Positions 12,477-40,667 of a stretch of 64,000 nt of DNA are shown one piece after another. Positions within the stretch are counted from its first letter, which is position 1; every line of letters starts with the position of its first letter. The notes under the pieces were generated by a model. It saw only the letters and a program-made list of their open reading frames with translations, was not told where the DNA came from and searched no databases. This stretch comes from Pedobacter arcticus A12 (GTDB taxonomy: Bacteria > Bacteroidota > Bacteroidia > Sphingobacteriales > Sphingobacteriaceae). Made by a program: the position numbers and the translations under genes. Location of the stretch: positions 186,001-250,000 of the forward strand of contig NZ_JH947127.1 of NCBI RefSeq assembly GCF_000302595.1, in the 5' to 3' direction.

Positions 12477-15209
12477 CTATCCCAAAGCAACCAAAGATTC
12501 CTCTAAAATTTTAATCTTAGCTTCCGCATCTGCTTTCTTGTTCTGCTCGTTTGCTACAATCTCTGGTTTTGCGTTTTGCACAAAACGTTCATTAGCCAAC
12601 TTTCCATTTACAGATTTCAAAAAGCCATGCAAGTATTCAATTTCCTTTTTGATTGTTGCTTTTTCTTCTTCTACATCGATATTTCCTTCCAAAGGCACAA
12701 AAAACTCATCTCTACCAGCCATAAAAGTAGCAGCGCAAGCAATTTTCTCATCAGTTTTGCTGATTTCAGTGATGTTGGCCAGTTTACAGATAATGTTAGT
12801 GTAAGCTAAGTAATCAATATCGGAGTTTATTTTTACTGCTAAATTCAACGCCTCTTTTGGAGAGATTTGCTTGCTGTTCCGGATATTACGTATTTCGGAA
12901 ACTACTTGCTTAATCGCCTCAATTTCTTTTAAAAGCTTATCGTTAGTTTCGGCAGACGTTGGAATTTGTGCTACAATACAACAATCCTTTTCTTCACGAT
13001 TTCCAAAAACTTCATCATGCCATAGCTCTTCAGTTAAGAAAGGCATAAACGGATGCAATACTTTCAAAATTCTTTCAAAAAATTGAATGCTTGCCTCGTA
13101 AGTGGCTCTATCGATCGGTTGCTGATATGCCGGTTTTACCATTTCTAAATACCAAGCGCAGTAATCGTCCCAAACCAATTTATAAGTCGCCATTAAAGCT
13201 TCTGATAAACGGTAGGATTTAAAGTTAGCTTCGATTTCCGCTAAAGCTTCGTTAAAACGTGACTCAAACCAAGCAATCGCAACAGCGTTTACATTTCCGT
13301 TTGATTCTCCCTCTCCTTTGGAGAGGGCTGGGGTGAGGCCTTCCCACCCCTTAATTAACCTAAAAGCATTCCAAATCTTATTGGCGAAGTTTCTTCCCTG
13401 TTCACAAGAAGATTCATCAAACATGATATCATTTCCTGCTGGCGAACAAAGCAACATCCCTACCCTAACACCATCCGCACCGTATTTCTCAATTAAATCT
13501 AAGGGATCTGGCGAATTACCTAAAGATTTAGACATTTTACGACCTAATTTATCTCTAACAATTCCAGTTAGATAAACATTTTTGAATGGCGCCTGTCCTC
13601 TAAATTCATGCCCTGCCATAATCATCCTAGCCACCCAAAAGAATAAAATTTCTGGAGCAGTAACTAAATCATTGGTCGGGTAGTAATAGTTAATATCTGC
13701 ATTTCCTTTGGCTTCCGGATTACCGCAAACTGTTGGATCAAAAACAGAAATCGGCCAAAGCCATGATGAGAACCAAGTATCTACTACGTCTTCGTCTTGT
13801 TTTAAGTCGGATGGTTGTAAGTTATAGGTTAAAGGTTTTAAATTGAATTGATCAATTGCTTCCTCCGCAGTTTTAGCAACTACAACTTCGCCATTTGGCG
13901 CATACCAAGCCGGTATTTGTTGTCCCCACCATAACTGGCGAGAGATACACCAATCCTTCACGTTTTCCATCCAATGACGGTAAGTGTTGATGAATTTATC
14001 AGGAATCAGTTTAACATCTCCATTATTCACATAATCCAAAGCGGGACCGGCCATTTCGCTCATTTTACAGAACCATTGCATAGAAAGCTTTGGTTCAATA
14101 GCCGCATCGGTTCTTTCAGAAAAACCAACTTGTGATTTATAATCCTCTACTTTTTCTAAATGCCCAGCCTCATCTAATAATTTAGCAATCCTTTTACGGG
14201 CGATGAATCGATCCTCTCCTACTAAAATCTCTGCTTTTTCATTCAACGTTCCGTTATCATTTAAGATATCGATTACTGGTAAATGGTGTTTTTGTCCGAG
14301 TTCGTAATCGTTTAAATCATGTGCTGGCGTAACTTTTAAACAGCCTGTACCAAAATCCATGGTCACATATTCATCGAGGATAACCGGAATCTCTCTATTG
14401 ATCAAAGGGACGAAAACTGATTTTCCGTGTAAATGCATGTAACGCTCATCATTCGGGTTCACACATATCGCTGCATCAGCCATAATGGTTTCTGGGCGGG
14501 TGGTAGCAATCGTTAAGTATTGAGTATCGAGTATTGAGTATTGAGACTCCTTGTCTTGTGGCTCTTGATTCTTTTTGTCTTGATTCTTGCTACTTACTAC
14601 TTGATACTTTATATAAAATAGCTTTTGGTTAACTTCTTTACGGATAACTTCTTCATCTGAAACTGCTGTTAAACCTTGCGGATCCCAATTCACCATACGT
14701 ACACCACGGTAAATCAAGCCTTTGTTATGCAGGTGAATGAACGTATCAATCACTGCTTCGGATAAAGCTGGATCCATGGTAAAAGAAGTGCGGCTCCAAT
14801 CGCAAGAAGCACCTAGTTTCTTCAACTGATCTAAAATTATTCCACCGTATTTATCTTTCCACTCGTAAGCATGAGCCAAAAATTCTGAACGGGAAATATC
14901 TTTTTTGTTGATGCCTTTTTCTTTGAGCATCGCCACTACCTTCGCTTCTGTCGCAATTGAAGCATGATCTGTACCTGGAATCCAACAAGCGTTTTTACCG
15001 CTCATTCTTGCTCGACGAACTAAAACATCTTGAATGGTGTTGTTCAACATGTGTCCCATGTGTAATACCCCGGTGACATTTGGCGGAGGAATTACAATAG
15101 TATAAGGTTCACGATCGTCTGGAGTTGATTTAAAAAAATCGTTCTCCATCCAATACTGGTACCATTTATCTTCAAAATCTTTCGGGCTGTACGTTTTGGC
15201 AATACTCAT
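12477..15209 (-). CDS. valS: Valine-tRNA ligase with two repeat-derived insertions
   Basis: About 910 residues from the ATG at 15209 (the frame continues 11 codons upstream, but MSIAKTYSPKDFE is the usual start). This class I synthetase charges tRNA-Val and edits threonine. Visible are the HIGH motif as HMGH near residue 48, the editing domain with TIATTRPETIMAD, KMSKS near 556, the anticodon-binding domain, and a C-terminal coiled-coil arm. Two in-frame insertions stand out. About 28 residues of QDKKNQEPQDKESQ type precede TIATTRPET (near 200-230), and GLTPALSKGEGES lies near 624-634. Both are encoded by intergenic-type repeats. The promoter is at 15240. Confidence 0.97.
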   Translation of the reverse strand: MSIAKTYSPKDFEDKWYQYWMENDFFKSTPDDREPYTIVIPPPNVTGVLHMGHMLNNTIQDVLVRRARMSGKNACWIPGTDHASIATEAKVVAMLKEKGINKKDISRSEFLAHAYEWKDKYGGIILDQLKKLGASCDWSRTSFTMDPALSEAVIDTFIHLHNKGLIYRGVRMVNWDPQGLTAVSDEEVIRKEVNQKLFYIKYQVVSSKNQDKKNQEPQDKESQYSILDTQYLTIATTRPETIMADAAICVNPNDERYMHLHGKSVFVPLINREIPVILDEYVTMDFGTGCLKVTPAHDLNDYELGQKHHLPVIDILNDNGTLNEKAEILVGEDRFIARKRIAKLLDEAGHLEKVEDYKSQVGFSERTDAAIEPKLSMQWFCKMSEMAGPALDYVNNGDVKLIPDKFINTYRHWMENVKDWCISRQLWWGQQIPAWYAPNGEVVVAKTAEEAIDQFNLKPLTYNLQPSDLKQDEDVVDTWFSSWLWPISVFDPTVCGNPEAKGNADINYYYPTNDLVTAPEILFFWVARMIMAGHEFRGQAPFKNVYLTGIVRDKLGRKMSKSLGNSPDPLDLIEKYGADGVRVGMLLCSPAGNDIMFDESSCEQGRNFANKIWNAFRLIKGWEGLTPALSKGEGESNGNVNAVAIAWFESRFNEALAEIEANFKSYRLSEALMATYKLVWDDYCAWYLEMVKPAYQQPIDRATYEASIQFFERILKVLHPFMPFLTEELWHDEVFGNREEKDCCIVAQIPTSAETNDKLLKEIEAIKQVVSEIRNIRNSKQISPKEALNLAVKINSDIDYLAYTNIICKLANITEISKTDEKIACAATFMAGRDEFFVPLEGNIDVEEEKATIKKEIEYLHGFLKSVNGKLANERFVQNAKPEIVANEQNKKADAEAKIKILEESLVALG
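13307..13338. repeat. CCCTCTCC-hairpin repeat inside valS
   Basis: CCCTCTCC and GGAGAGGG form a perfect hairpin, followed by CTGGGGTGAGG. The same element in opposite orientation is intergenic at 40633-40667. Here it is translated in frame as part of valyl-tRNA synthetase. Confidence 0.8.
14515..14610. repeat. TTGAGTAT/CTTGATAC low-complexity tract inside valS
   Basis: Reads AGTATTGAGTATCGAGTATT, then units of CTTGTCTTG, CTCTTGATTC, TTGTCTTGATTC and CTACTTACTACTTGATAC. This simple tract has intergenic character but is kept in frame within the editing-domain region of valS. Confidence 0.75.
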
Positions 15210-24035: not shown

Positions 24036-25430
24036 ATGGGATTAGTAAAACAAAATTGTTCGCCACAAAACCATCAACTTAAAACTTACAACTTAAAACT
24101 TACTGGGTACTATTTCCTACTTTTTACTTCATACTGTTTACTTTATACTTCCCATACTTTCGCTCAAAAAAAAGAAAAAAAACAACGTTCACAACGGGTT
24201 GAAGTTCCTTCTTCGGATTTGGTTTACGACGATATCAATTATCTTCCCGAAATTAAAACCGTTGCTTTTTACAACCTTAAAAAGGTGCAGTCTTTCCCCC
24301 TATTAAATTTAGGAGGCGGTGATGAGCTACTTTTAAGTTTTGATGATTTACGGGGTGGTAGCAGAAATCTGTATTATAGCGTTGTACATTGTAATGCAGA
24401 TTGGACTCCTTCATCCATCAGCCCTATCGAATATCTAGAAAGTTTTAGCGAAGACCGTGTCAACGATTATCGGTTTTCATACAACACTTACCAAAAGTAC
24501 ACCCATTACGAACTTAAGTTGCCTAATTTTAGCGTAATTCCTAAATTATCTGGAAATTACTTACTGAAGGTTTTTGAAGATGGCGATGCAACAAAATTAT
24601 TACTGACACGCAGGTTTTATCTGCTTAATACAAAAGTAGCTGTACAAGCCGAAATAGCACCTTCAGCCACTGTTTCAAATCGCGATAGCAATCAGAAAAT
24701 AAACTTTTCTATCTTCCACCCAAGCCTAAACATACAAAACGCTTATCAAGAAATCACGGCAGTCGTACTACAGAATGGGCGAACAGATATTTTTCAAAAC
24801 ACGCAACGCCCCTTGTTCATCAGAAACAACCAACTCATTTACGCTGACAATAGCACTACTGATTTTAAGGCTGGCAACGAGTTTCGCAGGTTTGATACCC
24901 GTAGTTTCCGGTATAAATCAGACGGGGTTTACCAGATTATCCAAGACAGTATTTATACCGTAAACCTTTTTGCAGATATCGATAAAAGCAAAAGCTCTTA
25001 TACCTATCAATTTGATGAAGACGGTAATTTCTACACCTTAAACCAAGATGGAAACGATCCGCGTTACGATGCAGATTACGGAAATGTAAACTTTGTTTTA
25101 AAGGCCGAAGCACCAGACGAACAGGGGTTTGCCTATGTGGTGGGTAAATTTACTGCTTACCAAAAAAACAACAGCAACCGCATGGTTTACAACGCCGAGC
25201 GTAAAGAATTCACCTTAACCACGCTTTTAAAGCAAGGTGTGGTGGATTATCAATATGTTTGGGTGGATAAAAACGGCAAATTGATTGACGCTAACGCTTT
25301 CGAAGGTTCCTACTACCAAACAGAAAACGACTATCAAATACTAATTTACTACCGAGCACCCGGCGCCAGATTTGATCAGTTGGTTTCTTTTACCGAACTG
25401 AACAGCACAAAAAATCCTCGGAATTTTTAA
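24036..25430 (+). CDS. Type IX secretion system plug protein (DUF5103)
   Basis: 464 residues. The DUF5103/T9SS plug first domain is clear: YLPEIKTVAFYNLKK, LLLSFDDLRGG, NLYYSVVHCNADWTPS, then IEYLESF, YRFSYNTYQKYTHYELKLPN. The C-terminal half (about 290-460) is the second beta-rich domain. Plug proteins close the lateral opening of the SprA translocon in the outer membrane. The signal peptide (cleavage after FAQ at about 44) is unusual, because most of it is encoded by simple TTAAAACTTACAAC and TACTTTTTAC repeat tracts. The only ATG available is at 24036. Confidence 0.88.
   Translation: MGLVKQNCSPQNHQLKTYNLKLTGYYFLLFTSYCLLYTSHTFAQKKEKKQRSQRVEVPSSDLVYDDINYLPEIKTVAFYNLKKVQSFPLLNLGGGDELLLSFDDLRGGSRNLYYSVVHCNADWTPSSISPIEYLESFSEDRVNDYRFSYNTYQKYTHYELKLPNFSVIPKLSGNYLLKVFEDGDATKLLLTRRFYLLNTKVAVQAEIAPSATVSNRDSNQKINFSIFHPSLNIQNAYQEITAVVLQNGRTDIFQNTQRPLFIRNNQLIYADNSTTDFKAGNEFRRFDTRSFRYKSDGVYQIIQDSIYTVNLFADIDKSKSSYTYQFDEDGNFYTLNQDGNDPRYDADYGNVNFVLKAEAPDEQGFAYVVGKFTAYQKNNSNRMVYNAERKEFTLTTLLKQGVVDYQYVWVDKNGKLIDANAFEGSYYQTENDYQILIYYRAPGARFDQLVSFTELNSTKNPRNF
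24073..24158 (+). repeat. AACTTAAAACTTAC and TACTTTTTACTT tracts inside the plug gene
   Basis: Two copies of CAACTTAAAACTTA are followed by TACTTTTTACTTCATACTG and TTTACTTTATACTT. This kind of low-complexity DNA is otherwise intergenic, but here it codes for residues 13-41, including the hydrophobic core of the signal peptide. Confidence 0.7.
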
Positions 25431-40632: not shown

Positions 40633-40667
40633 AGCCTCACCCCCAACGCTCTCCGAAAGAGAGGGAG
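40633..40667. repeat. CTCTCC-hairpin repeat (same family as in valS)
   Basis: GCCTCACCCCCAACGCTCTCC-gaaa-GAGAGGGAG is the reverse of the element at 13307-13338. It follows the stop codon at 40628 by 4 bases and may serve as a terminator here. Confidence 0.75.

Follow-up and report, generated by a model that had tools for sequence, protein, structure and literature searches.

Palindromic repeats that are dispersed over a genome and translated in frame within unrelated genes are known from Rickettsia. These elements, according to the accessible part of a review (PMC10969869, after Ogata et al. 2000, 2002), are about 150 bp long and encode a conserved peptide. Direct repeats of the heptamer TAACTGA occur in Beggiatoaceae, Cyanobacteria and some Bacteroidetes, and the available part of their description weighs the translation of the heptamers and names one pair within purC (MacGregor 2015, PMC4679880). 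Here we describe 7-nt periodic repeats translated within valS, the gene for valyl-tRNA synthetase (ValS, ValRS), of Pedobacter arcticus A12. Further in this study the window is the whole analysed stretch of 64,000 nucleotides (contig NZ_JH947127.1, positions 186,001–250,000), L followed by a number denotes a locus, and G followed by a number, a genome. The window genome is G000 (4.23 Mb), and its nearest named valS relatives are P. cryophilus and P. psychrophilus. Our main conclusion, which we hold to be probable, is that dispersed repeats of the genome itself have repeatedly colonised a permissive turn of ValS and rewritten it.

The valS gene of the window contains three repeat sites, numbered 1 to 3 below. 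Like the Rickettsia elements as summarized in PMC10969869, they involve palindromic repeats that are scattered over the genome and read in frame inside unrelated genes, and the outcome is similar. The unit in ValS differs in being a 7- or 8-nt periodic tract that varies in sequence from species to species and hits the same codon site repeatedly, and the long loops at site 1 (57–165 nt, with differing peptides) do not fit the description of a 150-bp element with a conserved peptide. A closer likeness than site 1 is offered by site 3, whose GC-rich palindrome gives recurrent peptides. With the TAACTGA arrays, as far as described in the part of PMC4679880 consulted, the repeats studied here share tandem 7-nt units, a chiefly intergenic location and presence in Bacteroidetes, where other heptamers lie near. 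However, those arrays consist of one fixed heptamer in direct orientation, whereas here the units are degenerate, often form inverted arms, are of the AAGTNNN and other types rather than TAACTGA, and recurrently enter one enzyme site. BrickBuilt, a miniature inverted-repeat transposable element (MITE) of Porphyromonas gingivalis (PMC4596501), likewise comes from Bacteroidota and combines tandem repeats with small inverted-repeat ends, but in the accessible part of its description the units are 23 nt long and always intergenic. A full-text literature search, with most subscription papers outside its scope, yielded no report of repeat inserts in ValRS, of DUF559 inside LeuRS, or of an essential enzyme with one site rewritten again and again by heptad hairpins. 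Judged by the parts of the sources cited, in-frame palindromes (PMC10969869) and intergenic heptamers (PMC4679880) were already known, and their combination at one enzyme site appears to be new.

Repeat sites in valS of the window

The gene, its three repeat sites and the two arms of the site-1 repeat are as follows.

12477–15209, minus strand: valS, valyl-tRNA synthetase, 910 aa (Pfam tRNA-synt_1, E = 4.5e-123; match to 1gax, E = 1.9e-188)
14508–14603, minus strand: site 1, hypervariable loop QVVSSKNQDKKNQEPQDKESQYSILDTQYLTI, residues 203–234 (loop comparison, lag-7 score, fold model)
14578–14613, minus strand: 5' arm of the repeat at site 1, made up of AAGTANN-type heptads as read in the mRNA (lag-7 segment; further copies genome-wide)
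14513–14545, minus strand: 3' arm of the repeat at site 1, made up of NNTACTN-type heptads as read in the mRNA (lag-7 segment; Tandem Repeats Finder, TRF, 14516–14545)
13800–13856, minus strand: site 2, heptad-repeat loop IDQFNLKPLTYNLQPSDLK, residues 452–470, preceding QDEDVVDTWFSS (lag-7 score 11, p = 0.0014; heptads in relatives)
13302–13343, minus strand: site 3, a dispersed GC-rich palindrome that is translated, EGLTPALSKGEGES (DNA CTCTCCTTTGGAGAGGGCTGGGGTGAGG at 13311–13338 on the plus strand)

The tract of site 1 (approximately 14513–14613) is 7-nt periodic and is read in frame, with no internal stop in the 910 codons. A period-7 array was found by TRF at 14516–14545 of the window, and the lag-7 score of the loop DNA is 21 (p = 0.0002 against codon shuffles). 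This bears out the original prediction, made from the sequence alone, that a repeat tract is translated within ValS. Protein-level repetition was rejected, since 7 nt is not a multiple of the codon length. The inverted repeat formed by the two arms is weak, with a stem score of 10 (p = 0.02 and 0.01). The loop bounded by KLFYIKY and ATTRPET comprises 32 aa, compared to 11–12 aa in short-loop relatives. Thus the predicted extra residues are real, but they number about 20 rather than the proposed 28 or so. As proposed, they precede TIATTRPET and lie on the N-terminal margin of the editing domain.

In the window genome the site-1 repeat family has 66 matches at E ≤ 10, among them valS and several units that belong to a single array. 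Many of the matches that were read are intergenic, in agreement with the predicted source, intergenic repeat DNA. The best explanation of the window insert is a translated copy of this repeat. An assembly artefact, considered in the original prediction, was rejected as unlikely, given that separately assembled relatives have repeat loops at the same turn. A scan of the window against Rfam gave no matches.

The alignment with ValRS from T. thermophilus (1gax) breaks at the extra residues, between residues 205 and 209 of 1gax, and about 25 residues of the window ValS replace a tight turn. In the AlphaFold2 model of the editing domain (residues 184–358, 41 relatives; mean predicted local distance difference test, pLDDT, 79.9), strands occupy domain positions 12–21 and 48–53 (block means 87 and 91). 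The insert between these two β strands (positions 26–47) has no secondary structure, and two of its segments score below 50. The model of the whole ValS is poor (mean pLDDT 61.5), yet it is concordant on the insert, where residues 208–228 score below 50. The modelling suggested along with the original prediction thus gave a loop, and the best reading of these models is that the site-1 insert forms a disordered loop at the editing-domain root.

With its three repeat sites, valS is a hot spot. In 81 valS-centred loci, the window included, 38 of the 40 coding tracts with a 7- or 8-nt period are inside valS, whose share of the coding DNA in these loci is about one third (an estimate only).

Recurrence and turnover among relatives

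The first 103 loci yielded 97 with a ValS frame. After the exclusion of six duplicates (L001, L024–L028), 91 distinct ValS remained, including that of the window. The site-1 loop is at most 14 aa long in 44 of them, at least 19 aa in 37 and intermediate in 10. In the window's genus, sampled by 18 genomes (two without a whole valS gene), 11 of the 16 full-length ValS have loops of 21–32 aa, and five have loops of 11–12 aa. The insert is therefore not the singular oddity for which it had been taken: long loops with many differing sequences recur at the same turn, GC-rich palindromes occupy this turn in some other Bacteroidota, and repeats are translated in further proteins of the same genome (see below). 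Nor is a similar insert common to all relatives, the other possibility raised at the outset, given the 44 short loops and the differences among the long ones.

A 7-nt period was found in 30 of the 37 long loops (lag-7 p ≤ 0.01) and an 8-nt period in four more (lag-8 p = 0.001). Since neither is a multiple of the codon length, the repeat resides in the DNA. The units differ between loops (AAGTATC, AAGTCCG, CAACCTG, CAGACAA and CTCACAA), and in some sister species unrelated repeats occupy site 1 between well-conserved flanks. Loops and 600-bp flanks were compared in 15 hand-chosen pairs. In five pairs of near relatives (L039/L056, L034/L042, L010/L012, L057/L068 and L057/L065) the loops align at just 0.44–0.50, with flank identity of 0.85–0.91, whereas two short-loop control pairs retain 0.75 and 0.91. 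A ValS tree from which the loop was left out requires at least 17 changes between long and short.

For site 2, extraction succeeded in 70 of the 91 distinct ValS. It is heptad-periodic in 26 of them, with a length of 17–20 aa. In many Pedobacter it is another stretch, about 30 aa long and non-repetitive, and in Sphingobacterium it has about 14 aa. Site 2 seems to have been rewritten in many relatives with little change in length.

For a survey of the wider class, 69 loci were taken. Of the 30 best matches, 29 were new and were included; another 40 loci were picked by hand among the matches listed, from a total of 194 matching genomes. These loci yielded 59 sequences of site 1 and 42 of site 2. 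Site 2 is heptad-periodic in 11 of the 42, with differing units. Among the 52 site-1 loops extracted outside the window's family, GC-rich palindromes were recognized by eye in L202, L204, L206, L225, L235 and L242.

Dispersed repeats and their translated copies

Lag-7 tracts were counted in 400-kb samples of three genomes. The window genome has five (four noncoding, one coding), Daejeonella G060 has 39 (29 noncoding, eight at gene edges, two coding), and M. endophyticus G027 has 11 (nine noncoding, two coding). Control periods of 6, 9 and 10 nt gave 0–2 tracts per sample, period 8 gave 0–4, and shuffles gave 0–1. The units are degenerate, 7 nt long and, in some genomes, 8 nt long. Most intergenic copies that were read have units of the AAGTNNN type on the 5' arm and of the NNNACTT type on the 3' arm. 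Twenty intergenic regions were taken by hand from the panel matches described below. In 18 of them the copy forms a long inverted repeat that beats all 20 shuffles (arms 17–42 nt, loops 11–210 nt), a figure biased by the choice of many regions for two closely opposed matches. The interiors of the copies are, by eye, unlike one another. In several intergenic copies (L301–L319) the arms seem by eye to lie near the stop of one gene and the start of the next, flanking the spacer. On average, hairpin structure is also seen in the ValS inserts: across 33 of them, arms pair better with their own opposite arm than with the arms of other species (10.9 vs 7.2, permutation p = 5e-5).

The relation between inserts and the genomes' own repeats was assessed in whole-genome searches with four inserts and a panel of 14 genomes, both chosen by hand; the counts include the insert itself and are in part lower bounds. 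Two sister species provide a clear contrast. The M. gilvus insert has at least 21 matches in its home genome and 1 in M. pankratovii, while the M. pankratovii insert has 2 in M. gilvus compared with at least 28 in its own genome. For the L051 insert there are at least 15 matches at home and at most three in any other panel genome, and the window insert has at least 22 at home. In the window's genus, a four-unit AAGTNNN pattern has 3–100 matches in the 11 long-loop genomes and 0–1 in four of the five short-loop ones. Repeat load was compared in 66 genomes, covering every one of the 37 long loops and 29 of the remaining 54; 50 of the 75 named loci were taken with loop lengths known, the counts were copied by hand with those of the control pattern added in, and G014 and G015 were excluded. 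The median is 16 for long loops vs 2 for the others (Mann–Whitney p = 8e-5). A k-mer test in 23 cases, with 1–62 kb of non-coding DNA per genome and thus little power, gave a summed p of 0.0045.

Heptads are translated in other proteins as well. In the window genome these are a polysaccharide deacetylase (beside the matched domain), a glycosyltransferase and the end of HisD, and in relatives, IspG (GcpE) and galactokinase. The deacetylase (L131:1094–1873, contig C2 at about 806.7 kb) has successive SSIKYQDDLQ-type repeats encoded by heptad DNA right after the Pfam-matched part. The IspG of M. endophyticus (L175:4580–6649, 690 aa) contains two heptad tracts and one octad tract. In the window, a type 9 secretion plug-like protein (PF17116, 24036–25427) has a signal-peptide-like N-terminus derived from heptads at 24076–24150, provided that the predicted start is correct, and the N-terminal part of another open reading frame (ORF), at L153:19288, is likewise heptad-encoded. 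A further ORF with a translated heptad tract, truncated at the end of its locus (L032:8225–8728), may encode a dihydroorotate dehydrogenase.

The GC palindrome of site 3 forms a second class. It has 22 exact pattern matches in the window genome, site 3 included, and the reversed control has none; a degenerate copy is located at 40647–40665 of the window. From 52 matches, 30 loci were fetched, among them five of the 22 from the window genome, four of which are intergenic. In 20 of the 30 fetched genus loci the palindrome is inside an ORF (simple ORF caller). These ORFs correspond to eight different genes, several recurring in more than one genome. LeuS, AspS, ArgC, MurD and ArgB were assigned by family models above the cut-off, and a MetH fragment, below it. 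The palindrome is internal in LeuS, AspS, ArgC and the MetH fragment. In MurD and ArgB its distance from the predicted start is at most about 16 residues, so that the palindrome may lie upstream of the true start and be untranslated.

LeuS of the window genome (L003/L005, contig C5, approximately 161.4–164.7 kb) carries an in-frame DUF559 domain (PF04480, E = 3.6e-32) directly before the editing motif FTTRVDT, between the inverted palindromes GCCTCATCCC..CTTCTCCGAAGGAGAAG and CTTCTCCTTCGGAGAAG..GGGATGAGGC. One more palindrome precedes KMSKS, and L341 has the same DUF559 arrangement. The insert resembles an element that bears a nuclease and is bounded by the short palindromes. From our reading of the motifs, its turn probably corresponds to site 1 of ValS.

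Origin of the loops

Colonisation of the turn by the genome's own repeats probably proceeds as follows. The β-turn that forms the root of the ValRS editing domain would tolerate a disordered loop, and so repeat copies would survive there if they contain no stop and their length is a multiple of three. The tract would then be quickly rewritten or replaced by repeat families current in the genome, and repeats would persist in the protein only at permissive turns. We consider it most likely that the copying step is ectopic, from one repeat to another by gene conversion or template switching, with slippage in addition, because the intergenic copies have arms in common, though by eye not interiors. 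An adaptive role is not needed for this explanation.

A number of observations weigh against it. The home genome comes first for only one of the four inserts; its ranks among the 14 genomes are 5 (tied) for M. gilvus, 2 for M. pankratovii, 1 for L051 and 3 for the window, so the repeat families are widely shared. The M. gilvus insert has more matches in G023 (35), G043 (34), G047 (24) and G031 (22) than at home, ties with G000 (21), and has 11, although weak, even in the short-loop Sphingobacterium G061. The home count is likewise exceeded by G043 (51) for the M. pankratovii insert and by two Mucilaginibacter genomes, G043 (26) and G023 (23), for the window insert. In the k-mer test the home genome is first in 3 of the 23 cases. 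The short-loop genome G008 has 22 matches to the AAGTNNN pattern yet no insert, and the relation of repeat load to loop length is not significant on 10 independent pairs. Neither a 7-nt nor an 8-nt period is present in the long loops of L047, L062 and L100. The stem score is 7 or less in 11 of the 33 inserts, and the stem of the window insert is modest (score 10, with its own 3' arm ranking 6 of 33). Some long-loop pairs remain alignable (L013/L014, 0.94; L015/L016, 0.89; L057/L064, 0.83; L067/L072, 0.78; L030/L036, 0.76; L006/L007, 0.64; L014/L015, 0.58), and the changes on the tree do not distinguish gains from losses.

MITE-like transposition, our second-ranked copying step, could by itself account for the loops if entire heptad hairpins were moved by a transposase acting in trans, with the ValS turn as one among many targets. 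The inverted repeats are indeed dispersed, terminal in the 18 hand-chosen copies as in MITEs, and different families dominate in different genomes. However, the interiors of the copies that were read look dissimilar by eye. No link to a transposase was found, Y1 being the only kind looked for: around ten Y1_Tnp loci of the window genome (about 1.5 kb on each side), the pattern used detects no GC palindrome, and there is a single weak heptad tract. A Y1 transposase as the mover is thus unsupported, and the palindromes differ in this from the repetitive extragenic palindromes with their associated tyrosine transposases (REP/RAYT), since they are not adjacent to Y1 (IS200-like) genes. We consider such a mobile unit rather unlikely. 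Growth in situ, in which seed motifs (AAGT..., ...ACTT, derived from common codons) are extended by slippage and hairpin-templated copying with no outside input, would agree with the AAGT or ACTT fragments present in some short loops and with a 7-nt period accompanied by complementary arms. It is at odds with the loops of the two sister species, each of which matches a separate genome-wide family of its own, and with the L058 insert, whose arms come from two families, each of them abundant in the L058 genome (34 and 51 matches), and we regard growth in situ as unlikely.

Exchange of valS segments between species, with the repeats as passengers, is suggested by the loop that P. miscanthi L057 and P. 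petrophilus L064 share (0.83), although L065 and L068, closer relatives of L057, are short-looped. Yet the 60- and 600-bp flanks of L057 are no closer to L064 (0.82–0.88) than to L068 (0.83–0.89), and many loops resemble, by eye, no other in the set, which makes horizontal spread improbable. Finally, the loop might be an adaptive appendage of ValRS with incidental periodicity of the DNA. The loops appear hydrophilic by eye and stay in frame, but neither their sequence nor their length is conserved, many relatives lack such a loop, and the 7-nt period exceeds that of codon shuffles. Selection for a protein feature is therefore very improbable.

Beyond recurrent colonisation of one turn, a broader proposal is more tentative, and we consider it possible rather than probable. 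Bacteroidota would contain fast-evolving dispersed heptad and octad hairpins whose concerted evolution crosses gene borders. The same machinery would rewrite fixed codon sites in essential enzymes, foremost sites 1 and 2 of ValRS, so that parts of housekeeping proteins mirror the current repeat dialect of the genome. A second class, the GC-rich palindromes, would include in LeuRS a version with a DUF559 nuclease-like domain between inverted copies, at the corresponding turn.

The finding extends in-frame palindromic repeats, best known in Rickettsia, to Bacteroidota. It also calls for caution with ValRS and LeuRS alignments in this phylum, as they contain translated repeat DNA. One codon site of one essential enzyme, which in dozens of species has been sampled by differing families of repeats, constitutes a natural replicate design, and the system allows for testing both the spread and conversion of repeats and the tolerance of a housekeeping fold to foreign sequence.

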